Below are positions 15,381 through 62,128 of a DNA stretch of 64,000 nt, piece by piece. A model generated the notes under the pieces. The model was not told the DNA's origin. It did no database searches and saw nothing but the letters and a program-made list of their open reading frames with translations. Position 1 is the first letter of the stretch; each line of letters starts with the position of its first letter. The stretch comes from Labyrinthula sp. Ha (lineage: Eukaryota; Sar; Bigyra; Labyrinthulida; Labyrinthulaceae), in assembly GCA_015227615.1 (NCBI GenBank), contig JAALGZ010000037.1, positions 310,001-374,000 of the forward strand, given 5' to 3'. The position numbers and the translations under genes were made by a program.

Positions 15381-18300
15381 CTAGTTGAATCTAAGGCTAC
15401 TGTTTAAAGCAATAGAAGCCCTTCCTCTAACAATGACAGACTCTTCTACAATTTCAAATTTCAGCTTCCACACGTTTTCTTCAGATTTACTTTCCCTGTG
15501 TAAGTTTATGGTAACATTTTTGTAGCTACGTTTATTCACATACAAACTTCCAAATTCAACATCTTCTAGAGATACGGGTAAAGAAGCAACATCTCGCCCA
15601 CTTTTAGATAATACAAGACCACTTTGAAAAACAGCATCTAGAACAACATCTTCTACCGGGAACCTTTCACTTAAATTGACTTCCTCTTTAAAGATTCTTG
15701 CAGATAAGGAACTGCTGTCTTCCTTAACGATAATCTTAGTAATCGGTTGAAGTCCTTTTAAGTGAAACAAAGTTACTCCATCATATAAGTCTTCTGGAGT
15801 CATATCTTTTCCAGACTTGGTAATCGATAATTTCGGCGCGATATCTGCAGGGTTGGATGAACCAAGTTCAACTATTATCTTATAGCTTGGAACTTTTCTT
15901 CCATTAACTTGTTGCTTCATCTCTGCTTTAACCTTGATTGAATCTTTCGAGGCACTAAGTTCAGTAAGCTTAACAAAAGCATGAACTTGAGAAACATTTT
16001 GATCAAATGAAACACCTCGAAAAAGCTTCGCTTCATCAACTTTTCTAACATACCATCCAGGATAAACTCCCTGAACAGCTGTCAAGATTCTATTCACCAC
16101 AGATACGAAAGGGACAACCTCTTTTCCTTTTATCTTATGTGCTTTCAGTGAAGATTTCTTTGTGAAAAATATCGTCTGCTCTGAATTATTTGCGTCTAGT
16201 CTCTTATAAGGAATACTTGCCCAATTTCCAACAAGTACTTGTTTCTTCTCTCCTGCGTTTACAATTATCCTTGCTACTGTTGCAGCACCACTTTGACGAT
16301 CTATAATCTGAACACCACCCTCAATAAACTTCTTCTTCAATGCTGGTGTAACCATACCACCATCCCAAGGACCAAAATCAAAAGCTTGAGATACAGTAGC
16401 TCTTGGAGCATAAAAATATGCAAGTTTGTTTAACACTTCATTGGCTATCGAATAATCACTTTGGCCAACATTTCCAAAATATCCAGCCAGAGAAGAGAAT
16501 AAAACTAAGTTCTTGATCTCACAACCACTAGTTTGAAAACCAGAAGCTATATTGAAAAATCCATCAACTTTTGTACTATATACCGCGTTGAACTCTTCCA
16601 TAGTCTTTTGGATAATAAGTTTATCACGTAGAACACCAGAAGCATGGAACAACGAGTTCACTTTTACACCTTGAGAAGATAAATCTTTGAATAGTTTCTT
16701 CACTGCATCAGCGCTGGTGATATCACAGGAAACATATTCAACTTTGGTTGCATACTTTCCAATAGAAATAAGATTACTCTTGACTTCAAGAGTTCCTGCA
16801 ACAGAATTTATCAGTTTTCTAAGTTCACTTGGTCTTACTTTTTCTCCCTTGGATTTAAAATACGTGATAGCTGCCTTCTGAAGAACACTGGATTCAAAAC
16901 CTTCTACACCTTGAGCCCACTCTGGAACTTCTTTCAACTGGGATCTACCAATCAAATAAAAAGTTCCCCCATTTAATTCTTTTGCGAGTTCCGCAATACA
17001 TAGTGGTGTAATTCCTCTTCCTCCTCCAGCAACTAACCAAACATCTGAAGCGGATGGTTTTATTGATCTATCAGTATAAGAAGAGAGTCCAGTAACTTCA
17101 GGAGCATATCTTTGTCCCTCTGCATCGTAACAAACTTCTTTTCTGGTATAACTCGGATCACACAGTTCACTCAAAATAAGATCTGCTGCTTTAGCTGAAG
17201 AAATCCTATTACTAATGTCAACAGCGCGCAACTGAACCTGTGGCCATTCATGTGTAGCTGTCTTAACAAGTCCACATAGTCCGTAAATTTGCAGCTTCTT
17301 CAAGTCAGAGCCTTGTGCGAAATCATACCCCAAAGTTCCTTCATGAGAAAACGCAACTAGAACTTTCTTCAAGCTCTTTGTGGCATCCAAACCCATTTTC
17401 TTGAAAAGCATCAAAGTTTCTCCAAGAGATTCTTCTTTGACAGATGGAACTACGACAACAACATTTGGACCTGAGACGTAGCCACTTGATATGGTTGAAC
17501 TTGGAATTTTCTTCTTGAACTCAGCTGCTAGAGGTTCATTTCCTAGATCTACAATATGAATCTTTCCAAGAGATGATAACTCAGATGGCACAGCAAGACA
17601 ATTATCAATCTGAACAAGTTCAGGAACAGATAAGTTTAACCCGCTACTTACTTCCTCTCTAACTTCAAAATCAGTTGAGTCAAATTTATCTGCTGGGATT
17701 GCTGTTGGAACCTCAATTGGTTTTGAAACCTCAACAGAACCTTCTTTACTTCCTGGCGTCGAACCTAAAGTTTAAGACAGTTAAAGGTTAACTACCTTGT
17801 GACATCTCATTTTTCAATGCTTCTATAACTTCTCCAACTGTTCGAGTTCGACTTAATGCGTCTACATCTTTCGCCTCTACGTTAAGTTGATCTTGTACTT
17901 CCGACAAAATTTCTACTCTCTTGATAGAGTCTATACCAAGCTCTGTTTCAAGCTCCATATCAAGCTCAATCATATCCACTTCGTACCCAGTCTTTTCAGC
18001 TAAAACTTCTAGTACTACTTGCTCTGCCTTATTCAACAATCCAGAATCAACTGCAGGTGTACTACTACTTGCAACTGGGGCTGAGACTGGTGCAGAAGAA
18101 GCACCCATTTCCTTTTTCAAGGCGTCAATTACTTCACCTACTGTTCTGGTTCGACTCAAAGCATCAACATCCTTGGCTTCAACATTCAGTTGATCCTGAA
18201 CCTCAGAAAGAATTTCAACTCTCTTGATGGAGTCGATTCCTAATTCTGTTTCAAGTTCCATGTCTAACTCAATCATATCAACCTCATACCCAGTTTTCTC

Positions 18301-21300
18301 AGCCAAGACTTCTAGAACAACTTGCTCAGCCTTGTTAAGAAGAGAACTATCAACTGCTGGGCTTGAAGAAGCAGGAACAGGAGTGGAAGCGGCTACTGGA
18401 GCAGCGCTAGCTGGCACAGATCCCATTTCCTTTTTCAAAGCATCAATAACTTCTCCAACCGTTCGTGTTCGGCTAAGGGCATCAACATCCTTCGCTTCTA
18501 CATTCAGTTGATCCTGAACCTCAGAAAGAATTTCAACTCTCTTGATGGAGTCGATTCCTAATTCTGTTTCAAGTTCCATGTCTAACTCAATCATATCAAC
18601 CTCATACCCAGTTTTCTCAGCCAAGACTTCTAGAACAACTTGCTCAGCCTTGTTAAGAAGAGAACTATCAACTGCTGGGCTTGAAGAAGCAGGAACAGGA
18701 GTGGAAGCGGCTACTGGAGCAGCGCTAGCTGGCACAGATCCCATTTCCTTTTTCAAAGCATCAATAACTTCTCCAACCGTTCGTGTTCGGCTAAGGGCAT
18801 CAACATCCTTCGCTTCTACATTCAGTTGATCCTGAACCTCAGACAGAATTTCAACTCTCTTGATGGAGTCGATTCCTAATTCTGTTTCAAGTTCCATGTC
18901 TAACTCAATCATATCAACCTCATACCCAGTTTTCTCAGCCAAGACTTCTAGAACAACTTGCTCAGCCTTGTTAAGAAGAGAACTATCAACTGCTGGGCTT
19001 GAAGAAGCAGGAACAGGAGTGGAAGCGGCTACTGGAGCAGCGCTAGCTGGCACAGATCCCATTTCCTTTTTCAAAGCATCAATAACTTCTCCAACCGTTC
19101 GTGTTCGGCTAAGGGCATCAACATCCTTCGCTTCTACATTCAGTTGATCCTGAACCTCAGACAGAATTTCAACTCTCTTGATGGAGTCGATTCCTAATTC
19201 TGTTTCAAGTTCCATGTCTAACTCAATCATATCAACCTCATACCCAGTTTTCTCTGCCAAGACTTCTAGAACAACTTGCTCAGCCTTGTTAAGAAGAGAA
19301 CTATCAACTGCTGGGCTTGAAGAAGCAGGAACAGGAGTGGAAGCGGCTACTGGAGCAGCGCTAGCTGGCACAGATCCCATTTCCTTTTTCAAAGCATCAA
19401 TAACTTCTCCAACCGTTCGTGTTCGGCTAAGGGCATCAACATCCTTCGCTTCTACATTCAGTTGATCCTGAACCTCAGACAGAATTTCAACTCTCTTGAT
19501 GGAGTCGATTCCTAATTCTGTTTCAAGTTCCATGTCTAACTCAATCATATCAACCTCATACCCAGTTTTCTCGGCCAAGACTTCTAGAACAACTTGCTCA
19601 GCCTTGTTAAGAAGAGAACTATCAACTGCTGGGCTTGAAGAAGCAGGAACAGGAGTGGAAGCGGCTACTGGAGCAGCGCTAGCTGGCACAGATCCCATTT
19701 CCTTTTTCAAAGCATCAATAACTTCTCCAACCGTTCGTGTTCGGCTAAGGGCATCAACATCCTTCGCTTCTACATTCAGTTGATCCTGAACCTCAGAAAG
19801 AATTTCAACTCTCTTGATGGAGTCGATTCCTAATTCTGTTTCAAGTTCCATGTCTAACTCAATCATTTCTACTTCATACCCAGTTTTCTCAGCTAATACA
19901 GCTAGTACAACCTCTTCCGCCTTATTCAACAAAGCTGAATTAACTACGGGTGCTGTGGTGGTTGATGTTGGCGATGAGGTAGAGCTTGAGGAAGCCCCCA
20001 TTTCTTTTTTCAATGCATCAATCACTTCTCCAACGGTTCTGGTGCGACTAAGAGCATCTACATCTTTAGCCTCAACATTCAGTTGGTCTTGAACCTCAGA
20101 CAGAATTTCAACTCTCTTGATAGAATCAATTCCTAGTTCAGTTTCAAGTTCCATGTCTAACTCAATCATTTCTACTTCGTACCCAGTCTTTTCAGCCAAT
20201 ACCTCAAGAACAACCTGCTCAGCACGATTCAGAAGCCCTTGATCAATAACTTTGGCAGGTGTTACAGCTTTGGGTGCAGATTTTACCACATTAGCAGCAA
20301 CTGCATCCGTCTGAATTTCCCTTGGAATTCTCAGCTTAGCCTCACCAGCTTCGGAAAGATTTTCAAGCAGTCTATCATACTCGCCAAGCATTGACACGAT
20401 CATTTCACGATGTTTCTTTATAGCTGTAAGCTCAGCACTAGTTGATGTCAAATGTGAGCTAGTTTCCTCCTTGCTCTCTAACTTCTTTTCTAGTACACTT
20501 ACCTTTGACTTCAGCAAGTCAATTTCTTCTTCTCTGTTCTTAAGCTTTTGCTCAAACAACTCCTTATCTTTAGAGCTCACTGATGGAGATACTCCCTTGA
20601 GAAGCGACACAGTTCTTCCGTCGTTCATAATTCTTTCCCTCTCTTTGATTGTCTTAGAAGAAACATATGTTGAAGCTTTTAATCTCAGCTGAGTTTTCTT
20701 CTTCACACCCAAACCAGCAGCAACTTTGAATTTATTCACTTTAACCCATGGGTCAAAATTCTTAAACTCAACTCCAATTACTGCTAACTGCATGGCAGCT
20801 TCTCTTAGTTGAAGCTCGCTTCCAGCCTTGCCTCCTTTGCTGTTTACAGAGACAACAGAAACACCCTCTTTTCCTTTTAAGATACTTTCAACCAGTTTAC
20901 CAAGTGTATTCTTTGGTCCAAATTCAACAAATACACGAGCACCAGCATCATACATGTTTCTAATCTGCTCAGTGAACTTAACACTACTTTCCATGTGCTT
21001 TGAAAGGTTGGAGATAACTTCAGTAGGTGATGAAACTTGTTTTCCAGTTACATTAGAGTAGAACTTGCAACTTTTTCTTTGCGCAGAAGTTTTCTTTATT
21101 GAAACTGATAACTTGGTGTTTGCAGGCTTCATGTAAGGTGAATGGAAGGCATCTGCAACCTTCAACTCGACAACTTTGAACGTTGAAGAAAGTTTTCTTG
21201 CTTCTCTTTGAACTGCATCAGCTTCCCCAGTTAAAATAACCTGTTCAGGGGAGTTGAAGTTGGCTATCCAAACATTAGCTTCGGATGGTTTAACATCTTC

Positions 21301-23532
21301 AGCTCCTTTTCCAATTATAGCAAACATCTTTCCTGGCTTGGATCCAGTTGATGTCTCCATCAAATAAGCTCTTTGTGCTACAAGTTCAAATGCTGCGGAT
21401 TCAGATAAAACTCCAGAAGCTATGAGAGCAGAGAGCTCACCCAAAGAGTGTCCAGCATAGAAGCTTGCATTAAAATTAGCTTGCTTGAACACGTTGTAAG
21501 CTCCAAGACTAACAGCGACAGTCGATAATTGAGCGTTCTGAACAGAGCCTAAAGTCTTCGTCTGTTCTTCAAGAAGCTTTGTTTCGTTGTCATATGGTTT
21601 CCTAGGATAAAGTACCGATGATGCCCTAAGATCACATACTTTCTCACTAGATCTGTCGACCTTGTTTACTTCGGATCTAAATGTAGGCCAGTTCATAGCA
21701 ACCTCATCAAACATATGCAAATACTGACTACCCTGTCCACTAAACAAAGCAGCTAGTTTGCTATCAATGCCCACTTCTCCAGAGGATCTGTAGTATACCT
21801 GTTCTCTTGGTAGAACAAAGGAGGCAACCTCGGTAGACTTACTCAATCTAGTCAAAGCTGCATCCACCTTGGATTTTAGGTCAACGAAACTAGTAGATAC
21901 AAATCCAACTCTAGCAGCTGAAACCGGAACAACAATACTTACTCCATGTTTCTTCTCCAAATCGAGGATTGTGGTGTATTCCTTAGCTTCAACAGTAGTT
22001 GCCAAACTCTTCTTGATCTGAGTTAGTTCAGATACAAGCGCTTGAGCGGATCTTGCTCTTACAACAAAAATCTTTGGCACTTCATTAACTCTATATGGCT
22101 TCTCAACCTCTGCTTCTGCCTCAGTTAGAACTGCGTGATAATTCGCACCTCCAAATCCGAAAGAACTTACTCCAGCAATTCTAGCCTTGCCACCATCAGT
22201 AAACCAAGGCCTACTCTGGGTGTTAATGTAAATTGGCGAGTCTTGAATAAGTGTATTATCATACAATACAGGAGGAATCTTCACATTAATTGTTCCTGGT
22301 AGCGTTTTGTGCTTAAGAGCCATAATTACCTTAACCATACCTGCAAAACCTGCACATGCTTTCAAGTGCGCAATTTGACTCTTGATACTTCCAACAGCAA
22401 TTTGTTCTTCTTTAGCATCTGCTCCAGTAAAAACGTTCTTCAACGCGGTTAGTTCAATTCTATCTCCCACTGGGGTTCCTGTTCCGTGTCCTTCAATCAA
22501 AGAAACATCCTTAGGATCAACTCCAGCTTTCTCATAAGCTCTTCTAATCGCTAGTTCTTGACCAGACACGGTTGGAGAATAAATTCCAGATGCTTTTCCA
22601 TCACTGGAAGAAGCGACGCCATTAATAACACAGTGAATGTCGTCCCCGTCAGCCAATGCATCAGTGTATTTCTTTAAGACTAACATAACACTTCCTTCTC
22701 CAATTAACATCCCTTTAGTATTTTTGTCATAAGCGGTTAACGATTGATCAGTTGAAAAGACAGGTGTCTTACTAAAGGCCATATACATACCAATTGAGTT
22801 ATCGGTACAAGTTGCACCACAAATCATAGTTTTACAATTTCCATAAAGAATCTCGTCAATCGCAACCTTCAATGCAATCAAACTACTTGCACAAGCAGCA
22901 TCAACAACACAATTCATACCATCTAAATCGAAAACGTTTGTGCATCTTCCAGCAGTAACATTACCAAGAAATCCTGGAAAACTGTCTAATCTCCATTCTG
23001 GAAAGTTTGCTTTGAACTTTTCTACAGCAAGATCTACATCTTCCTTTGGTAGACCAATTTTAGACAAGACTTTTTCAACAACAGTATAATTCATACGTGA
23101 GTAGAACTCGTTTGAGGCTTTCTGTCCACCTCCAATCCCTAGAACAACACCAATATTCTTTTTCTTCTTTGGTGCTCCTTTCTTTTGATGCGAAAACGGA
23201 TCAATACCGGCGTCTTCCAAAGCTTCCTTAACTTTGAGGAGAGTCAATGTCTGGTTAGTATCAGCATCTTCAACTTGGAACATATTCATTCCAAACTCAC
23301 GTGCATCAAAGTTAAAGTCAGGGATAAATCCTCCCCTTTTACAATATATTTTATCTTTGGTGGTCTTCACTGGATCATAATACGCAGTGACATCCACTCT
23401 ATCACTTGGCAAATCAGAGAGAGTATCCAAACCTTCTTTGATAGTTTCCCAACAACTGTTGATATTTTCTCCGCCTGGTAAGATCGCAGAGACCCCAATT
23501 ACAGCAATTCTCTTATCAACGTTTTCTGACAT
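15381..23532 (-). CDS. pfaA: polyunsaturated fatty acid synthase subunit A (KS-MAT-8xACP-KR-DH-like), join complement(15381-17764, 17796-23532)
   Basis: A 2706-residue iterative type I PKS/FAS-like subunit that builds long-chain PUFAs from malonyl units with partner subunits. The ketosynthase (about 1-450) has the active Cys in DAACASS (about 212) and His in GHGTGT and IAHLKA. The malonyl-CoA acyltransferase has GHSLGE (about 694). A charged coiled coil (about 990-1070) precedes eight acyl carrier domains (about 1095-1914), each with LGIDSIKRVE carrying the phosphopantetheine Ser. They are joined by Ala/Pro/Ser linkers. A ketoreductase follows with AGGGRGIT (about 2159), FSSLAG and DYSIAN. 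The C-terminal 200-300 residues look like a hot-dog DH-like region without an obvious catalytic motif. A 31-nt GT...AG intron (17765-17795) after the last ACP contains an in-frame stop. Removing it joins the two frames exactly. Eight ACPs fit the eukaryotic OrfA type. Subunits B and C are not in the window. Confidence 0.93.
17765..17795 (-). other. 31-nt spliceosomal mini-intron in the PUFA synthase gene
   Basis: On the minus strand it starts GTAGTTAACC and ends AAACTTTAG. It lies between the eighth ACP and the linker to the KR domain. Read through, it gives a stop seven codons after the ACP. Removed, a Gly codon is restored and the frame runs on through a Pro/Val/Glu linker into the KR domain. 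Confidence 0.88.
17850..20235 (-). repeat. tandem ACP-coding repeat array (8 units; five nearly identical 318-bp units)
   Basis: Eight ACP units lie in tandem inside the PUFA synthase gene. Units 3 to 7, repeating at exactly 318 bp (same site near 18224, 18542, 18860, 19178, 19496, 19814), encode identical protein including the linker. At DNA level they differ only at a few silent bases, such as the third position before the lysine-rich core (gaaag/gacag) and Ser/Ala codon wobble. The outer units (1, 2 and 8) have different linkers and more silent changes. The pattern is that of recent unequal crossing-over or gene conversion. Confidence 0.93.
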
Positions 23533-23934: not shown

Positions 23935-25857
23935 TTAGATTGTAAGCTTTTCAGTTGAAACGATTGCATCTACTTTTTGAGCTTTCTCCAATTTTTTCTC
24001 AACATCTGCTCCTGAACCTTTCGATTTGCTCCTAGAATTCCAAAGAACCTGTACCGCCGCTAAAACAAAAACAACTAGCAGAAATAAAACCACAAAAGTT
24101 AGTGCGGCTTCCAATACTAAACCCTCTTCTTTTGCAGAGGACATATCTGTTAGTGAATCCGTAGAAATTTCAACTTTGGGAATACAAAGCTCGCAAGTAA
24201 CAGGACATAATTCCCTTATAAAGGCTAATGAACAGTCTTTTTCAAGATCTACACACTCCAAAGGTCCTCCAATAACAACTGATTCCATTCCAGTTGGGAC
24301 AGTATCCTCACAAACTATTGGCGCCGAAGTTGGTAGTAATGTTGGAGCAGATGTAACAGTAGGTGGCGTAGGTGCAGTTGGAACAATTGTTGGAGAATTC
24401 GTTTCTACGAGCTCAGTATACAATATTTCATCTCTTGGTCTAAGTATAAATAAACCTCTTTCTATAGTTGATACAGCAATATTTCCACTTGGATGCATAT
24501 AGTTACTCCAAATTCCTACAGGTTCATTTCCTTCAATATCTGGCGAGGTGTCAAAAAAACCTGCTTCTGAAACATCTGGTGTACCTTGAAGATCCAATAT
24601 TCTAAGTCCAGCAGCATAGTTTGATAAGTACATGAATCTATTACTTATTGCTGGGGAAGAGTAGTTTCCTTCTTCATATGGGGGAGATCCACCCCATCCT
24701 TTGGCATGTATTGCACCCCAGTTGTACAAATTATGGTCAATTGATACATCTCTATGTGTATAATTTGCTCCAAAAACAGGATTTCTTAAGTCTGATACAT
24801 CTACAATATATGTAGTGGTTCTGTTCACAACCTCTTGATACTCATCGAGTTCATCATTCAAGAAAACCCACCTCATGTCTGCCGTTAGCCAACCTTGATG
24901 AGTATAACTTGCAGTTGGATATCCTGTTCTAGATATCCTTTGTATATTTTGTTTATCTGTAACATCGTGAATCGTCAAGGTATCTTCATTATATCCAAAA
25001 AGTATTTCTCTACCAGTAAACCTTTCATCCGGTCCATCATATATCACAATCTGCGCGTCATGAGTATATCCATCATCATCAATACAAGCTTCAAACACAG
25101 GATTAAGCGGATCAGGTTCCAAGTTCAATACATATGGACCTCCTTTACACTTTGTACTTCCAACTGTATATGCATATCCTGTCTCTGTATTCACAGCTAT
25201 ATTATGTGACCGCCCATGTCCTCCATCAACACTATCTGGCTTCATTTCAAAAGGAAACTTTTCTTCTGGAATATCTCTTAGACGGCTAAGATCAAATACT
25301 TGAATTCCATATGTTTTATCAAACTCAGTATCTAAAGATCTATCTTTTACAACATAAGCAGTATTTTTATATACTTTTACATCTGCCCATTGTTCTTTTG
25401 AGCTTGGATTTGGTGCTACAGCAACTTTGATAGGATTTTCTGGATCAGTAGTATCAATAATCCACATTCCGTTATCTACAGTAAGCAGAGTATATTCCTT
25501 TCCTGTCTCTGTATCTTCCCATCCCCAGATATCAGATCCAGAAAATGTTCCTCCTTCAAAATCAATATTCATATCTGTCAGTGGAATGAAAGATTTAAAA
25601 TCCACATCTTTACAAGGAAAAGCTTCTCCGTTAATAAAAACTACTCCAGCAACATCTGCTGTATTGTTGCATGTCTGTGGTGAAAAGGAGGCTTCAAGAT
25701 CTGCTTTTGGAAGTTCTCCAGCATTTATTTTTTCTTTCCAGTAGTTTATCTTCTTATTCATGAGAAACTGTCCATTGAGGCTCATTAGACTATTTCCTGC
25801 TTGGACAGACAAGAAACTTGAAGCAGCCAGTGTGCTCAGCAAAAGACTTTTCTTCAT
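23935..25857 (-). CDS. secreted/membrane-anchored LVIVD-type beta-propeller protein with ShKT-like module
   Basis: A 640-residue protein. Residues 1-20 are a signal peptide (hydrophobic LLLSTLAASSFLS, then VQA). Residues about 60-480 match the 'choice-of-anchor B' LVIVD propeller family: SDIWGWED, LLTVDNGMWIIDTTDPENP, then ADVKVYKNTAYVV, GHGRSHNIAVN, THDAQIVIYDGPD, TYIVDVSDLRNPVF and LRILDLQG are typical blades. A Pro/Thr-rich stalk (about 497-523) follows. Next is a small six-cysteine module ending CPVTCELC (about 524-566), whose spacing resembles ShKT folds common in protist and animal extracellular proteins. A membrane helix (about 585-610) and a basic tail end the protein. It is thus a type I membrane protein with its propeller outside the cell or in the lumen. 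The ligand is unknown. It is an uninterrupted frame ending in TAA, lying directly upstream of the PUFA synthase gene on the same strand. Shared regulation is possible but not shown. Confidence 0.85.
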   Translation of the reverse strand: MKKSLLLSTLAASSFLSVQAGNSLMSLNGQFLMNKKINYWKEKINAGELPKADLEASFSPQTCNNTADVAGVVFINGEAFPCKDVDFKSFIPLTDMNIDFEGGTFSGSDIWGWEDTETGKEYTLLTVDNGMWIIDTTDPENPIKVAVAPNPSSKEQWADVKVYKNTAYVVKDRSLDTEFDKTYGIQVFDLSRLRDIPEEKFPFEMKPDSVDGGHGRSHNIAVNTETGYAYTVGSTKCKGGPYVLNLEPDPLNPVFEACIDDDGYTHDAQIVIYDGPDERFTGREILFGYNEDTLTIHDVTDKQNIQRISRTGYPTASYTHQGWLTADMRWVFLNDELDEYQEVVNRTTTYIVDVSDLRNPVFGANYTHRDVSIDHNLYNWGAIHAKGWGGSPPYEEGNYSSPAISNRFMYLSNYAAGLRILDLQGTPDVSEAGFFDTSPDIEGNEPVGIWSNYMHPSGNIAVSTIERGLFILRPRDEILYTELVETNSPTIVPTAPTPPTVTSAPTLLPTSAPIVCEDTVPTGMESVVIGGPLECVDLEKDCSLAFIRELCPVTCELCIPKVEISTDSLTDMSSAKEEGLVLEAALTFVVLFLLVVFVLAAVQVLWNSRSKSKGSGADVEKKLEKAQKVDAIVSTEKLTI

Positions 25858-37364: not shown

Positions 37365-39900
37365 ATGAAATATGATGAAAAATATATTCTAAAACTATAT
37401 GAAGAAAGGGAGGAAACCAATTTATTTCGGATTAAGTGGTATATATTTTCAATTTGATTAATATAAGGTCGAAAAAAGACAAAAAAGAGTCAGAAATGTT
37501 CAACAAGGCAATCAAAACTTTTCTCCAAAGTATAGAAGTAAATGAGGAGATAACTACGTTAAAGTAAGATATTTCCTTCTCAAAGAATATAGGTTTTCTT
37601 ATTGTCCACTTTTTGTTGTGAAAGAAGAGTTTGAAAGGTTATTAAGTTTATTTCCAGCAGTTGAATACTTGGGGTATTTTTTGTTCTTATTTTAAGATAG
37701 GTTTTATTGGTGTTCTATAAATGGTGATAACTTTAAAATACTCTCTAAACCAAAAATATTTCCTATGTTGAATAGGATAAAGTATTTTCTTATTATTTTC
37801 TTACTATAGTTTTTATTCGTGTAAAATAATATCTTTTAAGTCTTTTGATATGTTTATAAGCAAGAGAACAAGAGTTGAAAACTGGTGGTATATTTTTCTT
37901 CTATTTCATATTTAGGTTTTGGAATAATAAATTTACTGCAACTGAGTTATCAAGTATTTTTCAAACACTATCAGAAAATAATAATATGAAATACTTAAAG
38001 TAAACAAAACTTTTAGTTAAACTTTAGTGTTTGGGAGTCGACGAATTATAAAGAATATCAAGAGAAAAAAACAATAATTGGAGGTGTGAAAAATTTGCTG
38101 GTGGGAAGTCCTTCTCTTTGCTATTTTAAGTTATGTTGTTTATTTTATTTATTTTTTAGTTTTGACTTATTTGATATTAAAGATTTTGAAACAGCTTTGA
38201 TAAAACTAGTTGAAAAACATCCTTCACTTTTATATTTGGAAACAAGAAATAACAATATAAAAAATAAAAAAAATATTTATGTTATGCTTCAATCTATGTT
38301 ACAAAAAAGATATGATCAAAAACTCTATTTGAACGAACTTCAACTATTATTTATGGGTGATGGTAAAACTGGAAAAACTTCAACAATAAGAAGTTTATGT
38401 AAAAAAAGATTTATAAATAATATTTCTTCAACTTTAGTTTTAGAAGATACAAATATTTTTGAAATAAACGAACATAATTTAAAACCTCTCACTAAATATG
38501 AACTCAGTGTTCAAAGAGTGAAAAACGTTCTTGCTATTAAATATTATACTTCTCAGAAACTTGGAAATACATCAAAATACAATCTTCCTTTTGAAAAAGA
38601 ACTTTTGGAAAGAACTGTTCAAGATGAAGAATTTCTAAAACTGTTTACATGGGATAATAGCTCTGATTTTAAATCAAACAACCCTTTCTATCGTGTTTCT
38701 GATTTTGGAGGTCAAGAAGTTTTTTCTTCTCTTCATCATTTATTTATGAATCCAAATGCAGTTTATGTCCTTGTCTTTAACTTAGCAAAACAAAATAACA
38801 AAGATATGAATAGACTTAAATTCTGGTTAAAAAGTGTTGTCAAAAATGCTCCAAGAGCACCTATTATTTTAATTGGAACTTGTTTAAAACTATTTCTTAG
38901 GAAAAATAAGAAGGAAGAACTAGAAAAAACTGAATTGAAAGTCTTTAAACTTGTTTCTGAAACTTTTACTGATTTTCAGGTACCAAAAAATGAGAAGATT
39001 AGTTTTTTTCCTATTGAGAATTCAAATCCTTCTTCGAAAACTATATATGAGATACATGAAAAACTTAAGAGCTTTGCAACAAAAGATTCATTTTTTACCA
39101 ACTATGTTTCAGCTGAGTTAAGTTTACCTTGTGTTTGGATTTTATTCTTGGATAATTGTAGAGAAGAATCAAATTATATAAGTGTGAAAAACTTCAAGAA
39201 TAAAGGAAAAGTTTGTAACTTTACTGAAGAAAATTTAGATGATATGCTTGATATTTATTCAAGAGCAGGAATTATTTTCTACCATAAAAACCTTGAGTTA
39301 TCTGAAGAAACTAATTTTATATTTTTTGCACCTTCCTATATAGCTCAAGCTTTAGGAAGCTTTATTCGGGATTCAAGTCTTCATCAACTTGCTTTTAGGT
39401 TGAATTCAGAGATTTTTCCTGAATATAGAAAATATATTGATTTTGGAATAATAAGAAAAACTTTATTCAATGTCCTTCTCAAAAAATATACTAAAGAAGA
39501 AAGAGAATATGTTTTAAAAGTTGCTTTAAGTAGTATGATTTTATTAAAATATGATGAAAAAGCAGAAAGTTTTATTGTTCCAGAATTAATTCCTGTTTTA
39601 AAAGATAGGAGAATTAGACCTTCAAAAGATACTGAAGACTATATGGAATTTGAAGAACCTATTAGCTTGATAATGTTCTTAAATGCAGTTTTTGTATATA
39701 AAAATGAACATCAGCCAAAAGATATTTTGTTATATCGATATTTTGCAAGATTTATTTTCAATCCTGACAAGATTGTTGATATGTTTTTACTAAGTGAAAA
39801 AAAACTTGGTTTAAAATTAGTAAAGAAGACTTGGGTACAAAAAAGTATGGATATATTAAACACAACATTCAACGATAAGTTGTCTTCTGACATGGTTTAG
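37365..39900 (+). CDS. ROCO protein 1 (LRR-Roc-COR), eight exons
   Basis: Exons: 37365-37438, 37468-37563, 37593-37673, 37701-37781, 37810-37887, 37916-37999, 38028-38129, 38160-39900. Seven GT...AG introns of 27-30 nt, all phase 2, restore one frame of 778 residues from an ATG. Exons 3-6 (26-28 codons each) and exon 7 each encode one leucine-rich-repeat-like unit, opening F-x-x-C/N. A Roc GTPase domain follows: P-loop GDGKTGKTS (about 265-273) and switch II DFGGQE (about 380). The G4 position reads LIGTCLK where Roc proteins have a THxD-type motif. A COR domain (about 520-710: LPCVWILFLDN, IYSRAGIIFYH, FAPSYIAQ) ends the recognisable part, and no kinase domain is present. ROCO proteins are intracellular GTPase switches, usually dimeric through COR. 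The seventh intron is in frame and stop-free, so retention would add ten hydrophobic residues (788 in total). It is intact and its paralogue has the identical exon plan. Confidence 0.85.
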
Positions 39901-40360: not shown

Positions 40361-42042
40361 AAGGTTTAGGTTTAGGTTTTAAGGGAGTTAATTGGGCCTA
40401 CTGACCTAACCCTATGGCGGGGATCTAACTACCAATAAGAGCTACGTACTATTGTGCTATTTTGCTATTCTATTATGTTCCGTTATGCTTCCTTAATCTC
40501 ATTGGTATTTGACAGAATCCTCTGAAGCTGGTTGGTCAAATTATCATCTCTTGATCATTTCCATTATTTCCCAAAATCCTATCTTTTCTGATACAATCCA
40601 CAATCAAATTAACAGAAGACAAATCATGCAAAATGTAAAGATAATGTCACGTGTGCTCAGTTCAAGCTGTTGAAGCCTTTCTCGTTGGAGTTTTACCGCG
40701 ATATGGCTTTCTGTTATGTTCCTGTTCAAGATTTTCACGGCTTTGTTCATTTTTATCTGGATTCTGCATTTAGGATGGCCTGTTTTTATCTTATGATGGT
40801 TTTTGGACGACCCAATGTATGTTTCAAGTTGTTTGAAGATAATTGAAGGTGATTTAAGTTCGGGAGGTTGAAGGGGAGTATAGATGGTGAAGTTTCTCGC
40901 TGCTTTCAGGATGTTTTCTTCATTTTCCAGAGATTTTGTTTCTTGCAGTTGAGGTTATCGATGGTCTTAGTGAGTGCTGGGGGGCCTCCTTTGAGCTGAC
41001 TTATGCTGTTTTCGTGTTATTCTATAGATTGGCTGTTCGTTATTTTTGATCCAGGTGAAGGATGTTGATATTTTTGTCAGGATGGGAGAATTTCGTTTAT
41101 TTGCTCCAGAAGCTGAATATAGTCCATTGGGTTCATTCATCTTCCTCCAGCTGTTATTCTCGACATTTCTCTTAATGCTTTAGGTGATATTCTAGTTGTT
41201 GGGTTTCCTGTGGGTTGATTGTGGATGTTGTATCTTGGTCGAAGGATGGGTGTTGTTGGTCTTCTTCTCATGTCCCGGTTCCTGCTCATATTCAAGTCCA
41301 AGTCTGCGCTCCTGTTCAAGTCCAAGTTCGTGTTCATGTTCCTGCTCGTGTCCAAGTTCCTGTTCAAGTGCTGGTTCGTGTCCAAGTGTTCTTCTGGTTC
41401 CTGGCTTCTTGTGCAGTTTGAAGGTTGGCTCTCATTTTCAGGGAGGTGGGTAAAGTGGGATGGTGATGGGTCCTCAGGAGGCACTGTATCTTCTCCTAGT
41501 AATGCAAGTGCTTCATAGTCGTATATAGGTTTTGCTGTTGGTGGTGGTGATGGGTTTTGAAGTTGGTATTCTCTCAACGCTGTCAGTTCCTTGTCTATGA
41601 TGTCTTTTGCTGTGGATTTATGGGTTTCTTGACGCTTTTTTATTATATTGACAAGATCCAAGTCGTCTTCTTCTAGTTGAAAGTCAAAGCTGTCGATTCT
41701 ATCTATGGTTCTTTTCAGCCTTCTTGATATCTTTGTTAAGGCTTTTGTTATCTTTACATTGGACGGCCAGTTTTCTACATTATATATGGTTGGAGCTAAT
41801 ATTAGTGCTCTTCCCAGGTTGATTCTTTTTTTCCTTTGGATGTTTAAGGAAGATAATATGTCTCTGAACCTGTTGATGTGACTGTGAGCTTCATTTAACT
41901 TCTTGGAAATAGCGTCAGCATTAATACCTTGTGAATCAAAGATAGCGCCAAGATATTTGTACTTTGTCACAGCTTCAATTGTTTCTCCTGCTACTGCAAC
42001 GTTGTTTGTTTTGGGTTGGATTTTGTCGTGTATGATCGTTCT
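40361..42042 (-). mobile_element. 5'-truncated LINE in the left terminal repeat, flanked by 13-bp target-site duplication
   Basis: A 1.68-kb LINE 3' fragment on the minus strand is bracketed by perfect 13-bp direct repeats TCGCTAATTCATT (40348-40360 and 42043-42055). Its 3' end is a (CCTAAA)-type tail (minus strand AAACCTAAACCT). It contains the C-terminal part of the reverse transcriptase protein. The 5' truncation and target-site duplication are classic products of target-primed reverse transcription. Confidence 0.88.
41137..42042 (-). pseudogene. LINE reverse-transcriptase C-terminal fragment
   Basis: A minus-strand frame open from the truncation point. It reads VAVAGETIEAVTKYKYLGAI, then FDSQG, FRDILSSLNI, and LILAPTIYNVENWP. 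It is clearly homologous to the C-terminal part of the larger LINE's polyprotein (MKYLGAILNSTG and MVLAPGIYNLGNWP near 44766-44963). The final 100 residues are Asn/Leu/Asp/Arg repeats encoded by a small minisatellite (about 41270-41400) and are low-complexity. It lacks the endonuclease and RT catalytic core, so it cannot be a functional element by itself. Confidence 0.85.
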
Positions 42043-42146
42043 TCGCTAATTCATTGGCCCAATTTTGAGATGGCCAATTATGCCATACTAAATTCATAAA
42101 GCACAATCCAACAAAATTTTGGGCGCGAAGCAAGAAAAACAGTTAA

Positions 42147-43274
42147 ATGTCCTTGCTTCAACGGAGCTGCTTGACTTCGACCTCCACGGAGGGCCTAGAG
42201 TGTGCGAGCCAGCGCGAACAGAGACTACTTGTAGTTTCTCTGAACGTAGGTGGTCTTACTACAACAAAACTTAACCTTTTAGGAGAAAAAACTCAACAAC
42301 TGTCAATTTTGATGTTGCAAGAGTTACATGTAAATGGCAACAAGATGTTGATGGGAAAGGTGAAAGTCAGCAGCAGCAAAGGTAAGTGGTTCTTCTCTAA
42401 ACCGCCTACTGGAGCTGTAGCCGTAGCGACCTACTTGGCAGAAGAACTTGCTTGCAACGTCTCTACAGTTCAAAGTACTAGCGACAGGATCCTGAAAGTA
42501 GTTCTCCAAGGTACCGGAAAGAAAAAGGTTAGTGTGGTGAACTGCTACGCTCCACATTGTGGATTGGGCAGGGAAGCCTACAGAGATTTCCTGAAAGAAC
42601 TGAGCGGATTAACAAAGAATTTGAACAAAAGAAGGATACTACTTCTAGGTGGAGACTTTAATGCTCAAGTGAGTAGAACCGCGCTGAAGAAGGAAGGGAA
42701 GTTGGGGTTCTCAAGAAAAAGTAATGCGAATGGAAAGCTGCTGGAGGGTTGGTTAAAACTTAAAGGGTACTCAATTGTTAATCACAGCCATGTAACTGGG
42801 AAGAAGGGAGCGAAAAAACATGGAACATTCTACTCCCAATATGATAATACGAAGATATCAGAAATTGACTTCTTCATCACCAACAAACCAGAAAGAATTT
42901 ACCTATTCAAACCAAGACGAGACATCAGTAACTGGATCTGGCAGAAAGAGAAGTTTGACCACGTTGCTATTATGGTGGAGCTGAGGAAATTCCAAAGAGG
43001 AAATAAAAGATGGGAAAAAACGCCCCAGAGAGATCTCTCTAAACTTCTTTCAAATGGGCAACTGGCACAACAACTGGATCATGGCATCACTCTGGAACTC
43101 CAGAAATTAAAAGAGGAAGAAAGAGATTACGAAGCCTTGACACAGATCGTTCCTAAGCTGGTAGAAGAACTTTTACCTGAGCAGTGTAACAAAACGGTAG
43201 AACAAAGAACATCCGATCAAACACGAGAACTGCTACGAAGGAAAACTCACTCTGTGATACATCAACAGTGGTAG
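42147..43274 (+). pseudogene. LINE APE-type endonuclease domain
   Basis: A 375-codon frame. From about residue 28 it follows the exonuclease-endonuclease-phosphatase fold used by LINE endonucleases to nick target DNA: VVSLNVGGLTTTK (metal-binding Asn), LMLQELH (catalytic Glu), VVNCYAPH, LLLGGDFNAQVSR (the GDFN motif), KISEIDFFITNK and KFDHVAIMVEL (catalytic Asp-His). The catalytic set looks complete. The frame ends with TAG at 43272 while the reverse transcriptase continues in another frame, so either an indel or programmed frameshifting separates them. An indel is more likely given the nonsense codons downstream. It lies within the interior of the DNA-transposon-like element. Confidence 0.88.
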
Positions 43275-44965
43275 AAAGAAAGAAGCTCACCAACGCGATA
43301 AAAATAAGTGCAAGGAAGAACAAAGGGAACTGGTATATGGAAACTGCTGGAAAAATACAGTTCTTGTTTGAGAAGAACCACACAAGGGAAGTATACGCAC
43401 TGCTGAATCTAGTAAAACCAACAGCTAAAACCTATGCCCGGGTCACTAAAGATGACAAAGGAAATAAAGTAGATACGTGCCAGAGGTTGAAATTACTCAG
43501 TGACTATATAGCCAGTCAACAACTTCCACCAATACCAAAAATACACTTGACTCAAGATGAAAGGGTGCATTACTGTAGACCAATATATGAACCGGTTCCA
43601 GAAGAACACATAAACTCAAATCCTCCGCTAATGGATGAAGTCATAGCATGCATAAAACAGCTAAAGAAAAATCAAGCCACAGGTGTTGATTGCATCAATA
43701 ATGAAGTGCTGAAAGCATCACCAGCAGTCCACAATATCTTGCTAAGAGAAATCTAAGAGCTCTTCAGGAAACCCACGTTAAGTCAAAGGATGAAGAAACT
43801 GTTCTGCCTTGGGAAAATCATTCATATCTACAAACAAAAGGGAGAAAAGAATTCACCAGGATCATACAGGCCCATAGCACTCTTGAACACAACTTTCAAA
43901 CTGACAATGAAGATAATCCATAACTGTCTTCAACCAATAACCAATAAGTTACCTTCCTAGCAGGCAGGTTTCAGGTCAGGGCACTCCACAACAAACAAGA
44001 TTGAAATCCTAAACAATATTGTGAAGAAAAAACTGCTGCAGAACACAAAACTGAAACTTCTCTTCATTGACTTTCAAAAGCTTTATGACTTGGTTAACCA
44101 TGACTTCATACAACTCTCATTGAAAGAGCATGGAGTACCTAGCAAACTCAGGAAACTAATCCGGGTATTATATAAAAACTCTACAGTCAAAGTCTCAGAT
44201 GGGAAACATATGTCCAAAACGGTACACTTGAGAAGAGGATTACTCCAAAGAGACTCACTTTCTCCTGCTATATTCATACTGGTGCTCAATTCTACAATAA
44301 AAAGGATAAATAAAAATACCTTGGCAAATGTAGAAGTAGCAGGAAACATCTTTAACTACCTAGCTTTTGCGGATGACTTGGTTGCACTCTGTGAAAATAA
44401 CAACCAAATAAGTTCATTCATTGAACAACTTTACAAACTGGAATCCCTCTCTGGCCTAAGAATAAACTTAAGTAAAACAAAAATACTATTAACAAACGAA
44501 GGATATTCTTTGACAGGGCAGATACCAGATAAAACTATAAATAAATTCATTACTAACTTCTTCTGTGAAAAGTGCCAAAGATACTTCCATCGAGAGAAGT
44601 CTCTAAAGGCACACCTTAAAAGTCGTTTCTGCGATGGGACTTTAATTCGGAGAAGAGCAGGAACGTTAGCTGTCAAAGATACCAAATATATTATTCAAAA
44701 GATGCTGCAACCAGTTGCTGAACCAATATCAGTGTTAGGAGAAGAAGTTCAACCAGTAAGGGAAATGAAGTATTTAGGTGCGATCCTTAACTCCACTGGA
44801 ATAGCGCAAGAACGTGTGCTGTACAACCTGGACAAGCACGAAGCAAGACTTATTAAATACAGGGACATACTCTCCTGCAATACCCTGACCAGAAAAATAA
44901 AGAGACAACTTGCACGCAGCATGGTCTTAGCTCCTGGAATATACAACCTCGGCAACTGGCCATAA
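43268..44965 (+). pseudogene. LINE reverse transcriptase with C-terminal C2H2 zinc-finger-like motif, two nonsense codons
   Basis: One frame from 43268 to 44965 with in-frame TAA (43754-43756) and TAG (43958-43960). RT motifs in order: KKNQATGVDCINNEVLK (motif 0-like); HIYKQKGEKNSPGSYRPIAL (motif 1); QAGFRSGHST (motif 2); LLFIDFQKLYDLVNH (motif A, the catalytic Asp); RRGLLQRDSLSPAIFI (motif B); and LAFADDLVAL (the FADD catalytic motif, about 44366). After the thumb comes FCEKCQRYFHREKSLKAHLK then RFC, a C2H2-type zinc-finger-like segment. KYLGAILNSTG and LAPGIYNLGNWP then match the minus-strand copy. Further coding sequence, frame-shifted, continues to about 45790. In family terms it is an APE-LINE, perhaps the L1/Tx1 group, but the clade needs a phylogeny. 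Confidence 0.88.
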
Positions 44966-53818: not shown

Positions 53819-54753
53819 TTACAACGAGGGAGTAATATTTACTACATCACAGTTTACTATATCAGCTTGGGCATCCCCTTCACAAGGTCTTGAATCTAAG
53901 ACCATAGTAAAAACTGGACAGGGGCAGTTATTTAAAGCCCCAGGTCTATCAGAGCACTCTAGTATAGGATTACCATTTTCCATAACAACATTTCTGTTGC
54001 TGCACCTTGCATACTGGGTAGTACTTATACATATGCCAGCATTTATGTTATCATCTCCATCAGCATCGACCAAAGGTTGCTTAGAGCAAAGCTCCTCCAG
54101 TCTTGCTATTATTCCTTCTTCCTCTGTAGTTGGATAAAACGTAGGATTCTGTGTCGGAAATGAAGTTGGAACTGCTGTTGGAGGAGAAAATGATCCTGAA
54201 TTATTCGCACCCTGTTCTGCTGAAACATCAGCTCCATCAGAATCCATGACAAGAAACATAGCAAGACCAACACTTCCAATAACCAAGAACACAAGTAAAA
54301 TAAAAACACGTCCAGTTTTCTTCAAGACCTTCCTCCTTTGTTCACGCTTCTCTTCCAAAGCTTCTTGTTGTTTCTGCTCTTCATAGATCCTTTGTGGTTC
54401 CTTTGACACAACATTGAAAGTTTCATTCCTTTCGTTTTGTTCATCTCTTTGTTGCAGTGCCATTTTAAACTGCTGAGATTGGTCAGTTGCTCTGTAGCTC
54501 ATCAAGGCCTTTCTTTTAACGTCTTCCCGTTGAAGAGTATCAACTAAAAGTTATACCAAAATAAGATCTTACCTGAATGTAAGGAAGCTCGTTGATTTAT
54601 CTGATCCACTTCAAACCCAAGAACCTTAGTTGATAAAGTTCCAAGAGAGGAAGGAACAGATTCTAAATCATCTTCACCGACCGCAACTAACGAAGCAGCC
54701 TCCAATAAATCAACTTGTTTTGGTTTTGGGGCACGGGGTCCGGGATATCTCAT
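53819..54753 (-). CDS. single-pass (type II-like) membrane protein, two exons (join complement(53819-54543, 54573-54753))
   Basis: A 29-nt GT...AG intron (54544-54572) joins two frames into 301 residues. The junction reads ASLHS|VDTLQREDVK. Residues 1-138 are charged and helical (QQRDEQNERNETF, EEQKQQEALEEKREQRRKV, a coiled coil ending in KKTGR). They are followed by one membrane helix (about 140-160, VFILLVFLVIGSVGLAMFLV). With no signal peptide and positive charges before the helix, the N-terminus should be cytosolic. Outside are a Pro/Thr stalk (about 180-200; PTSFPTQNPTFYPT) and an 85-residue ectodomain with seven cysteines (LCSKQP, GICIST, RCSN, LECSDR, NCPCP, RPCEGD, VNCDV contain most). 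No family recognised. The Pro-Thr stalk style is shared with the LVIVD protein and the uncertain gene at 50.2-50.7 kb. Confidence 0.8.
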
Positions 54754-59500: not shown

Positions 59501-59592
59501 TTTTAATTTAGTATATTTTCATATTTTAAACTAATTAATCGAAAAAGTTTCAGTAAAAAAAAATTTTGTGTCAAAAAAGAACAAAAATAAAG
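56575..59592. other. upstream region of ROCO gene 2 (duplicated)
   Basis: Non-coding counterpart of 34336-37364. The part from about 58360 to 59480 is almost identical to 36118-37250, whereas the part before it is visibly more diverged. No gene is seen. Confidence 0.6.
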
Positions 59593-62128
59593 ATGATATT
59601 TGATGAAGAATCTATACTAAAACAATATGAAGAAAGGTGGAGAAGCTATGAATTTAAGATTGAGTGGTATACATTATCAATTTGATTATTATAAGGTCAA
59701 ATAAAGACAAAAAAGAGTCAGAAAAGTTCAACAAGGCAATCAAAACTTTTCTCCAAAGTATGAAAGTGAATAAGAAGATAACTAGGTTAAAGTAAGATAT
59801 TTCCTTCTCAAAGAATATAGGTTTTATCGTTGTCCACTTTTTGTTGTGAAAGAAGAATTTGAAAGGTTATTAAATTTATTTCCAGCAGTTGATTACTTGG
59901 GGTATTTTTTGTCCTTATTTTAAGATAGGTTTTTTTACTGTTCAATAAATGGTGATAATTTTAATATACTTTCTAAACCAAAAATATTTCCTAACTTAAA
60001 ACAGATATCGTACTTTCTTATTATTTACTTACTATAGTCTTTGGTTTTGTAAAATAATATCTTTTGAGTCTTTTGATATGTTTATAAGAAAGAGAACAAA
60101 AGTAGAATACTGGTGGTATATTTTTCTTCTATTTCATATTTAGGTTTGGAGATAATGAATTTACTGCAACTGAGTTATCAAGTATTTTTCAAACACTATC
60201 AGAAAATAATAATATGAAATACTTAAAGTAAACCAACCTTTTATTTAAACTTTAGTGTTTGGGAGTTGACGAATTATAAAGAATATCAAGAGAAAAAAAC
60301 AATAATTGGAGGTGTGAAAAATTTGCTTCTGGGAAGTCCTTCTCTTTGCTATTTTGGGTTATTTTGTTTATTTTATTTATTCTTTAGTTTTGGCTTATTT
60401 GATATTAAAGATTTTGAAACAGCTTTGATAATACTAGTTGAAAAACATCCTTCACTTTTATATTTGAAAACAAGAAACAAAAAGATAAAAAATAAAAAAA
60501 ATATTTATGTTATGCTTCAATCTATGTTACAAAAAAGATATGATCAAAAACTCTCTTTGAACGAACTTCAACTATTATTTATGGGTGATGGTAAAACTGG
60601 AAAAACTTCAACCATAAGAAGTTTATGTAAAAAAAGATTTATAAACAATATTTCTTCTACTTTGGTTTTAGAAGATACAAATATTTTTGAAATCAAAGAA
60701 GACAGACTAAAACCACTCACTAAATATGAACTTAGTGTACAGAGAGTGAAAAACGTTCTTGCTATTGAATATGATTTTGTTAATCAAGTAGAAAAACTCT
60801 CCAAATACAATCTTCCTTTTGAAAAAGAACTTTTGGAAAGAGCTGTTCAAGATGAAGAGTTTTTAACACTATTTACGAGAGATGGGGACACTGATTATAA
60901 ATCAAGCAACCCTTTCTATCGTGTTTCTGATTTTGGAGGTCAAGAAGTTTTTTCTTCTCTTCATCATTTATTTATGAATCCAAATGCAGTTTATGTTCTT
61001 GTATTTAACTTAACAAAAATAAATAACAAAGATATGAATAGACTTAAGTTCTGGTTAAAAAGTGTTGTCAAAAATGCTCCAAGAGCACCTATTATTTTAA
61101 TTGGAACTTATTTAAAACTATTTCTTAGGAAAAATAAAAAAGAAGAGCTAGAAAAAACTGAATTGAAAGTCTTTAAACTTGTTTCTGAAACTTTTGCTGA
61201 TTTTCAGGTACCAAAAAATGAGAAGATTAGTTTTTTTCCTATTGAGAATTCAAATCCTTCTTCTAAAACTCTTTCTGAGATACATGAAAAACTTAAGAGC
61301 TTTGCAAAAAAAGATACATTTTTTACCAATTATGTTTCAACTGAGTTAAGTTTACCTTGTGTTTGGGTTTTATTCTTGGATAATTGTAGAGAAGAATCAA
61401 ATTATACAAGTTTGAAAAAGTTCAAGAATAAAGGAAAACTTTGTAACTTTTCAGAAGAAGATATTGAAAATATGCTGCAGATCTATTCAAGAGCAGGAAT
61501 TATTTTCTACCACAATAATCTTGAGTTATCTGAAGAAGCCAATTTTATATTTTTTGCACCTTCCTATATAGCTCAAGCTTTAGGAAGCTTTATTCGGGAT
61601 TCAAATCTTCATCAACTTGCTTTTAGGTTGAATTCTGAGATTTTTCCTGAATATAGAAAATATATTGATTTTGGAATAATAAGAAAAACTTTATTCAATG
61701 TCCTTCTCAAAAAATATACTAAAGAAGAAAGAGAATATGTTTTAAAAGTTGCTTTAAGTAGTATGATTTTATTAAAATATGATAAAAAAGCAGAAAGTTT
61801 TATTGTTCCAGAATTGATTCCTATATTAAAAGATAGCAGAATTAGACCTTCAAAAGATACTGAAGACTATATGGAATTTGAAAAACCAATTAGCTTGATA
61901 ATGTTCTTAAAGGCAGTTTTTGTATATAAAATTGAACATCAGCCAAAAGATATTTTGTTGTATCGATATTTTGCAAGATTTATTTTCAATCCTGACAGGG
62001 TTGTTGATATGTTTTTACTAAGTGAAAAAAAACTTGGTTTAAAATTAGTAAAGAAGACTTGGGTACAAAAAAGTATGGATATATTAAACACAACATTCAA
62101 CGATAAGTTGTCTTCTGACATGGTTTAG
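59593..62128 (+). CDS. ROCO protein 2 (LRR-Roc-COR), eight exons
   Basis: Exons: 59593-59666, 59696-59791, 59821-59901, 59929-60009, 60038-60115, 60144-60227, 60256-60357, 60388-62128. Exon and intron lengths are identical to ROCO 1 at every position, giving 778 residues. LRR-like exons 3-7 are followed by Roc (P-loop GDGKTGKTS, switch II DFGGQE) and COR. The G4 site reads LIGTYLK, again with Lys where Roc proteins carry the guanine-contacting Asp. The Roc-COR part is highly similar to copy 1 apart from a short variable stretch (EYDFVNQVEKLSK against KYYTSQKLGNTSK). The LRR exons differ much more, especially in the two residues after the first aromatic of each repeat (FYR/FSY, FFY/FYW, LWF/FYS, FGD/FWN). 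It has no kinase domain. Both copies being intact suggests both are used. Confidence 0.85.

Follow-up and report, generated by a model that had tools for sequence, protein, structure and literature searches.

A window of 64,000 nucleotides of Labyrinthula sp. Ha (contig JAALGZ010000037.1, positions 310,001 to 374,000 of the forward strand; positions below count from the first letter of this whole stretch) carries two ROCO paralogues, here copies a and b, whose LRR exons differ more than the introns between them. The question raised by this locus is whether such a pattern reflects diversifying selection on an exposed binding surface, as the original prediction held, and what kind of gene family the two copies represent. 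The selection on the exposed LRR face found its support in 15 paralogues and site models, not in the two copies alone. In our assessment, copies a and b are quite likely to be intact members of a very large LRR-ROCO family, with a strand face under diversifying selection, that would form a repertoire of intracellular recognition receptors.

Copy a (37365-39900) and copy b (59593-62128) each consist of eight exons and seven phase-2 introns of 27-30 nt, with no indels between them:

59593-59666, + strand: copy b exon 1, with start codon, N-terminal cap and first β-strand; frame and GT-AG limits kept across paralogues
59696-59791, + strand: copy b exon 2, from the paralogue alignment
59821-59901, + strand: copy b exon 3 (LRR), from the paralogue alignment
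59929-60009, + strand: copy b exon 4 (LRR), from the paralogue alignment
60038-60115, + strand: copy b exon 5 (LRR), its donor being the GT that lies 3 nt past the first GT
60144-60227, + strand: copy b exon 6 (LRR), from the paralogue alignment
60256-60357, + strand: copy b exon 7 (LRR), its residues found in MAKER model P0001 too
60388-62128, + strand: copy b exon 8, with last LRR, Roc GTPase and COR domains, from Pfam
37365-37999, + strand: copy a exons 1-6 and introns 1-5, laid out as in copy b without indels, at an offset of 22228
38028-38129, + strand: copy a exon 7, placed by the offset from copy b
38160-39900, + strand: copy a exon 8, with last LRR, Roc and COR

Each LRR spans a phase-2 mini-intron that splits a codon in the middle of a β-strand, and an exon thus begins with the end of one strand and finishes with the start of another. 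The exon limits first proposed are not contradicted by the genomic evidence: GT..AG occurs at 172 of 175 intron positions in 25 related loci aligned to copy b (exceptions in L018, L025 and L032), and six MAKER family proteins from EukProt (P0053, P0039, P0031, P0029, P0023 and P0079) all mapped to their own DNA by an exact path. At the exon 5 donor, the downstream site reads GT in 25 of 25 loci, while the upstream site is GA or CT in several copies. In the mapped proteins, the middle exons measure 78-81, 75 and 84 nt and most mini-introns are in phase 2, the last intron being in phase 1 in five of the six; P0039 and P0023 read through the first two introns, and P0079 combines a shorter exon 1 with an additional, eighth intron. 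The gene of P0001 is probably transcribed, since its MAKER quality string gives 0.5 in the field that we take to be the fraction of splice sites confirmed by ESTs. The 15 copies used as intact are all open over at least 771 codons, and 12 of them end at the same last codon (L012, L016 and L017 stop seven codons earlier). At least seven of the 25 loci are disrupted or cut; L030 has a 305-nt insert inside exon 2, possibly a mobile element. The 60 nt upstream of the start codon (59533-59592) show a diversity of 0.042, below that of introns (0.065) and downstream DNA (0.140), which perhaps indicates a shared promoter under constraint, or conversion.

These proteins are ROCOs in that a Roc GTPase domain is followed by COR. 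In copy b exon 8, Pfam scores Roc at 56.4 bits (cut-off 27) and COR-A at 33.2 bits, below its cut-off of 35.3. The Roc domains of ROCO proteins are marked by a P-loop, GxxxxGKT/S, and by DxGGQ; both are present, and G269, G274, K275, T276, S277, D387, G389, G390 and Q391 are invariant in a 33-sequence alignment. Many ROCOs also have an Asp in the G4 motif, for guanine specificity. This Asp is missing in all five family members compared (IGTYLR, IGTFLN, IGTYLK or IGTCLK), whereas two outside ROCO homologues keep it (IGTHVD, VGTYRD). We do not treat the G4 Asp as a requirement for ROCO membership; judging by segments such as IGTYLKLF of copy b, the nucleotide specificity of the family Roc domain may have changed.

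Because Pfam detects no LRR in the family proteins scanned, the fold was predicted by modelling. The model of P0077, built with 31 family sequences, has a mean pLDDT of 76.5 (LRR blocks 72-94), with strands at 20-24, 58-62, 85-89, 112-116 and 137-141 and three more alternating with helices; these repeated β-strand/helix units carry LxxLxLxx(N/C)xL, as in an LRR solenoid. Its LRR half aligns with ribonuclease inhibitor and NOD2 and its other half with Roco2 and LRRK2. Searched as a whole with Foldseek, it finds LRRK1, LRRK2 and a Chlorobium Roco protein, at low whole-length TM-scores of about 0.3. The predicted fold and the LRR-Roc-COR architecture resemble those of the PDB entries of LRRK2 and Chlorobium Roco; as differences, Pfam finds no kinase domain in the five family proteins scanned, and the five members compared lack the G4 Asp.

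Between the two copies, exons 1-6 (494 nt) carry 61 differences, with 17 in the 74 nt of exon 1, and the seven introns (199 nt) carry 11 (3, 0, 1, 2, 0, 3 and 2), introns 2 and 5 being identical; the hand counts that drew attention to the locus were exact in both respects. The figure of about nine silent changes also agrees with ours, nine codons differing silently and 40 in residue. Nine silent changes out of 61 are not striking in themselves, because in this AT-rich reading frame, with its few silent sites, about 13.6 would be expected if all sense changes were free. For exons 1-6, counting puts omega at 1.00 and likelihood at 0.91, values not distinguishable from 1, against 0.22-0.39 in Roc-COR. 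A codon alignment thus does not bring omega well below 1, the outcome that would have spoken against selection, and at 0.9-1.0 the dN/dS of two copies was rejected as proof of diversifying selection.

The contrast between introns and exons was likewise right in direction but cannot carry the case for selection. In all 105 pairs of intact copies, the intron cores have diverged less than the LRR part has in dN, so introns are indeed more conserved than the coding sequence beside them. As a neutral yardstick, however, introns are rough and only partly sound, because whole introns have diverged less than counted LRR dS in 103 of the 105 pairs, yet their mean diversity of 0.065 (0.083 for the pairwise core) is close to that of four-fold sites of unchanged residues (0.066 at 11 sites in LRR, 0.10 at 50 sites in Roc). 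Depending on how it is measured, intron divergence equals the silent rate or falls below it.

The selection analysis used the 15 intact copies among the 25 related loci, in 105 pairs. Left out were L018 (a near-duplicate of L017), L013 (at a contig end), L032 and L033 (distant), and L019, L025, L028, L029, L030 and L031 (cut or disrupted). Averaged over all pairs, dN and dS are 0.153 and 0.142 in the LRR part and 0.068 and 0.175 in Roc-COR, with dN above dS in 67 of 105 and 0 of 105 pairs, respectively. Custom-written site models of the Goldman-Yang type, with F3x4 frequencies and branch proportions from M0, gave an M0 omega of 0.91 for the LRR part and 0.24 for Roc-COR (codons 251-768); the Roc-COR part is conserved, as had been claimed. 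For LRR codons 1-235, 2dlnL was 328 (M1a/M2a), 360 (M7/M8) and 316 (M8a/M8), with an omega of 8.7 on 13.4% of codons. The corresponding values for Roc-COR were 42, 63 and 39, a small signal on 2.7% of codons; sites there with P>0.95 for positive selection are codons 366, 509, 637, 682, 688, 691 and 766 of copy b.

The variability of the LRR part is concentrated in a small set of codons, termed x, at -2, 0, +2 and +3 around the codon split by each of introns 2-7 (24 codons). Based on the variability profile, site models and pN/pS counting, the hypervariable strands of copy b are as follows:

59784-59830, + strand: codons 55, 57, 59 and 60, with 57 split by intron 2
59894-59938, + strand: codons 82, 84, 86 and 87, with 84 split by intron 3
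60002-60047, + strand: codons 109, 111, 113 and 114, with 111 split by intron 4
60108-60153, + strand: codons 135, 137, 139 and 140, with 137 split by intron 5
60220-60265, + strand: codons 163, 165 and 167, with 165 split by intron 6
60350-60397, + strand: codons 199 and 201, with 199 split by intron 7

In a second subfamily, S2, whose numbering is common with the P0077 model, the x positions of the repeats named above are strand residues 1, 3 and 5 and the next one; by LRR geometry and the alternation along a strand, we infer that their side chains face the concave side of the predicted solenoid.

At x codons, pN is 0.464 and pS 0.206, a ratio of 2.25 [1.59-3.62], against 0.085 and 0.114, or 0.74 [0.53-1.07], at other LRR codons and 0.064 and 0.155, or 0.42, in Roc-COR. 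In 20,000 random draws of 24 LRR codons, no set matches the variability of the x set, and moving the x set by 1-6 codons in either direction leaves a pN of only 0.07-0.35. The x signatures of the 15 copies are all distinct, two copies differing on average at 17.2 of the 24 residues (range 1-22). The x positions are enriched in tyrosine, tryptophan, aspartate and arginine, an enrichment typical of protein-binding faces. The N-terminal cap (codons 16-31) is also variable, with a ratio of 1.80 [0.98-4.66]. Even between copies a and b alone, the residue has changed at 12 of 18 x codons and 20 of 131 codons elsewhere (Fisher p 1e-5), with eight of 16 changed in the cap region. In the site models, 24 LRR codons reach P>0.95, of which 19 are x positions. 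When the synonymous rate was left free by site, six codons remained above 0.95 (x positions 57, 87, 163 and 201; cap sites 18 and 35) and 12 above 0.9, so that claims on single sites are weaker than the pooled test.

The x set follows from the repeat layout, but the variability profile was already known when the rule was drawn up, so that its test in this first subfamily is not blind. Two further subfamilies, S2 and S3, to which the rule was applied unchanged, are the cleaner tests; their 20 loci were among 75 places found by one genome search, and one of 11 S2 loci (L056) and two of nine S3 loci (L052 and L054) were dropped for stops or gaps. The x ratio is 1.56 [1.08-2.40] in S2, against 0.57 for other LRR codons and 0.49 for Roc-COR, and 2.09 [1.44-3.49] in S3, against 0.70 and 0.53; M7/M8 2dlnL is 111 and 143, and in neither subfamily was any of 5,000 random codon sets as variable as x. 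Single sites with P>0.95 fall at x positions in four of 14 cases in S2 and seven of 19 in S3. Among the ten S2 copies kept, an intron without GT-AG limits occurs in four (L039, L044, L055 and L057); restricting the test to the remaining six yields 1.69 [1.20-2.81]. The clustering of changes on the exposed repeat face, proposed from two copies, thus recurs in all three subfamilies, the side-chain direction being that suggested by strand alternation. An omega above 1 is found at the exposed positions, while the further expectation that it would hold for the LRR exons as a whole is not borne out (M0 0.91).

These results provide good support for diversifying selection on x residues between paralogues, purifying selection generally prevailing at the other LRR residues and in the GTPase module. 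Of the reasons for selection on the strand face, recognition of varying ligands is the most probable, with defence as one of several possible uses. The x residues would lie along the concave side of the solenoid and bind ligands that vary, and binding would be read out by the conserved Roc-COR switch; a variable ligand-binding face joined to a conserved switch would make the family a repertoire of intracellular receptors that sense pathogens, prey or self and non-self. By analogy with known systems, a receptor or immune function may be proposed. The ligands may instead be non-microbial, the selection being real and serving to tell self from non-self in mating or cell fusion, or to tell food types apart, a possibility that we take seriously while leaning against it. 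The data give a diversifying face and are silent on what it binds, and Pfam adds no domain beyond Roc-COR that would hint at a ligand or role; defence is favored only by analogy with NLRs and brown-algal ROCOs, and nothing in the data separates the two readings.

It is very improbable that the pattern arose by local hypermutation or retroelement-templated mutagenesis at exon starts, with selection only purging broken copies. Variation is indeed tightly focused on the few bases flanking each intron. By counting, pS reaches 0.206 at x codons against 0.114 in the rest of the LRR part, although pS averages paths through multi-change codons, and x codons show greater diversity at their third positions (0.283 against 0.112), although many such changes alter the residue. 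Against this, x codons show no excess of silent differences given the same residue, which argues against local hypermutation: they number 30 of 618 at x, 1,072 of 15,404 at other LRR codons and 4,191 of 45,926 in Roc-COR, and in S2 20 of 387 at x and 455 of 5,102 elsewhere, S3 alone leaning slightly the other way (11 of 128 at x, 162 of 2,369 at other LRR codons). Moreover, the F codon between two hypervariable codons has a diversity of only 0.06, 0.02 and 0.00 where neighboring positions reach 0.5-0.65, the last eight intron bases remain at 0-0.09, and there is no adenine bias, since 76% of variable x sites and 73% of those elsewhere include A as a state.

Recombination between the paralogues is intense. 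The PHI z is -21.9 (434 informative sites, 200 permutations), and incompatibility between sites increases with distance, from 0.35 for pairs less than 30 nt apart to 0.60 for those more than 1 kb apart. L015 and L023 differ by 0-1 changes per 100 nt over about 2 kb upstream and exon 1, and mostly by 3-15 per 100 nt beginning with exon 2. In the pair L013 and L023, about 500 nt, roughly exons 1-4, carry 9-15 differences per 100 nt, the preceding 800 nt carry 0-6 and the sequence thereafter 0-1; by exon the differences are 12, 15, 10, 15, 3, 0 and 1, with 0 in 569 in exon 8, and assembly effects are possible in this mosaic because L013 ends at a contig end. The copies are recombinant mosaics, in which exchange between paralogues reassorts LRR segments. 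Exchange takes place between equivalent exons, exon order and number being kept, and no LRR exon was gained or lost among the 25 loci aligned to copy b (an alignment anchored on b, in which L025 has no matching exon 1).

Such exchange could in principle produce a dN/dS signal as an artefact of analysing recombining paralogues on one tree. A deliberately wrong tree with shuffled tips raised 2dlnL for the whole LRR part to as much as 480-484, and a wrong tree therefore inflates the M7/M8 statistic here; a value of 299 on the Roc-COR tree was set aside because the M0 fit (omega 0.10) looked unconverged. We nevertheless find the artefact scarcely credible, as pairwise counting uses no tree, four overlapping LRR segments each on its own tree still give 2dlnL of 97, 118, 152 and 169, and simulations with no omega above 1 reach at most 1.0 (ten runs on one tree) and 2.4 (ten runs with eight shuffled-tip segments). 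Relaxed constraint or pseudogenization of the LRR exons, beside introns that stayed alike by chance, would fit the whole-LRR omega near 1 (0.91) and the several broken copies, but is just as hard to believe given that most core L/F/C/I positions are nearly fixed beside variable neighbors (less clearly in the last two repeats), that the x ratio of 2.25 exceeds neutrality while other LRR codons stay at 0.74 (upper bound 1.07), and that 15 copies remain open.

Protein searches of the genome (50.8 Mb, 153 contigs) with four family queries found at least 143 distinct loci on 55 contigs, broken loci included. This number is a lower bound because only part of the matches of three queries entered the union (all 75 of the first, and the new-looking 57 of 82, 23 entries from 75 and 9 of 65 of the others). 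Among 120 protein matches listed, 114 bear MAKER names of EukProt and look like one proteome; the other six are 24-29% identical. No telomere-like repeat was seen in the first or last 120 bases of eight contig-end stretches near copies. Our paper search found no literature on ROCO in Labyrinthulomycetes, which are relatives of brown algae within the stramenopiles.

Several other features accompany the copies. On the - strand at 15381-23532, one ORF contains by Pfam KS, AT and eight ACP domains and the next a KR domain, presumably the PUFA synthase subunit A layout of labyrinthulomycetes. Predicted proteins at 23935-25857 and 53819-54505 (- strand) have PT-rich spacers (PTxxPT) near a hydrophobic segment, the first of them with no Pfam match. 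Actin-family matches in the genome number 57, including three of equal score about 7.6 kb apart on one contig (C24). Non-LTR-like retroelement fragments (41137-44965; RVT_1 at 44021-44962) start at most about 1.3 kb from where copy a ends; in the text of PMC6564038 available to us, Tetrahymena LRR genes are likewise reported beside a LINE.

The closest known system is that of the brown-algal LRR-ROCO genes, of which the present family is a variant. As described in the accessible part of PMC11378527 (citing Zambounis 2012), LRR-ROCO genes of Ectocarpus, Saccharina and other brown algae are candidate immune receptors with 72-bp phase-2 exons of one LRR each and positively selected sites 14, 16, 18 and 19 on the concave face. 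The two systems share the LRR-ROC-COR order, individual LRRs on separate phase-2 exons, pseudogenes among the copies and four equally spaced selected sites (14, 16, 18 and 19 there; -2, 0, +2 and +3 here, where the concave side is that suggested by LRR geometry). They differ, as far as that part of the paper goes, in repeat length (about 27 residues in exons of 78-84 nt, ribonuclease inhibitor-like in the model, here; 23 residues in 72-bp exons there), in the introns of 27-30 nt found here, and in gene number (at least 143 loci here; 9-47 ROCO genes per species there, and at most four in the other SAR species that it lists, Schizochytrium aggregatum included). Exon number is constant in the aligned subfamily here, whereas repeat number is shuffled there; variable LRR number was tested and did not occur in the subfamily, and the family is therefore not placed in the exon-shuffling class.

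The 90-bp-exon LRR genes of Tetrahymena are comparable in being numerous genes of a protist with uniform exon size, strong phase-2 bias and ectopic recombination; by contrast, in the portion of PMC6564038 at hand their exon arrays are of exactly 90 bp, most are under purifying selection by Ka/Ks, and they are not described as ROCO.

In plant NLRs, animal NOD-like receptors and lamprey VLRs, diversifying selection acts on exposed LRR strand residues, as it does here. Their switch is NB-ARC or NACHT, or is absent; here it is Roc-COR, and no somatic assembly is claimed.

We tentatively propose, with confidence a little short of even, that a probably single-celled protist holds a germline repertoire of more than 100 LRR-ROCO receptors shaped by an arms race on ligand-facing residues and by exon-scale gene conversion. 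If so, this would be an NLR-like recognition system with a Roc-COR switch, arisen separately from that of brown algae or shared with it. It has been suggested, in the accessible text of PMC11378527, that large ROCO repertoires accompany multicellularity. Since a probably single-celled genome has at least 143 loci and the same spacing of selected sites, such receptor repertoires would not be tied to it. Candidate ligand-contact residues can also be read from the sequence as 24 positions in the subfamily, with many natural variants on a constant signaling body, which makes it testable what single-celled eukaryotes recognize with LRR-ROCO repertoires.
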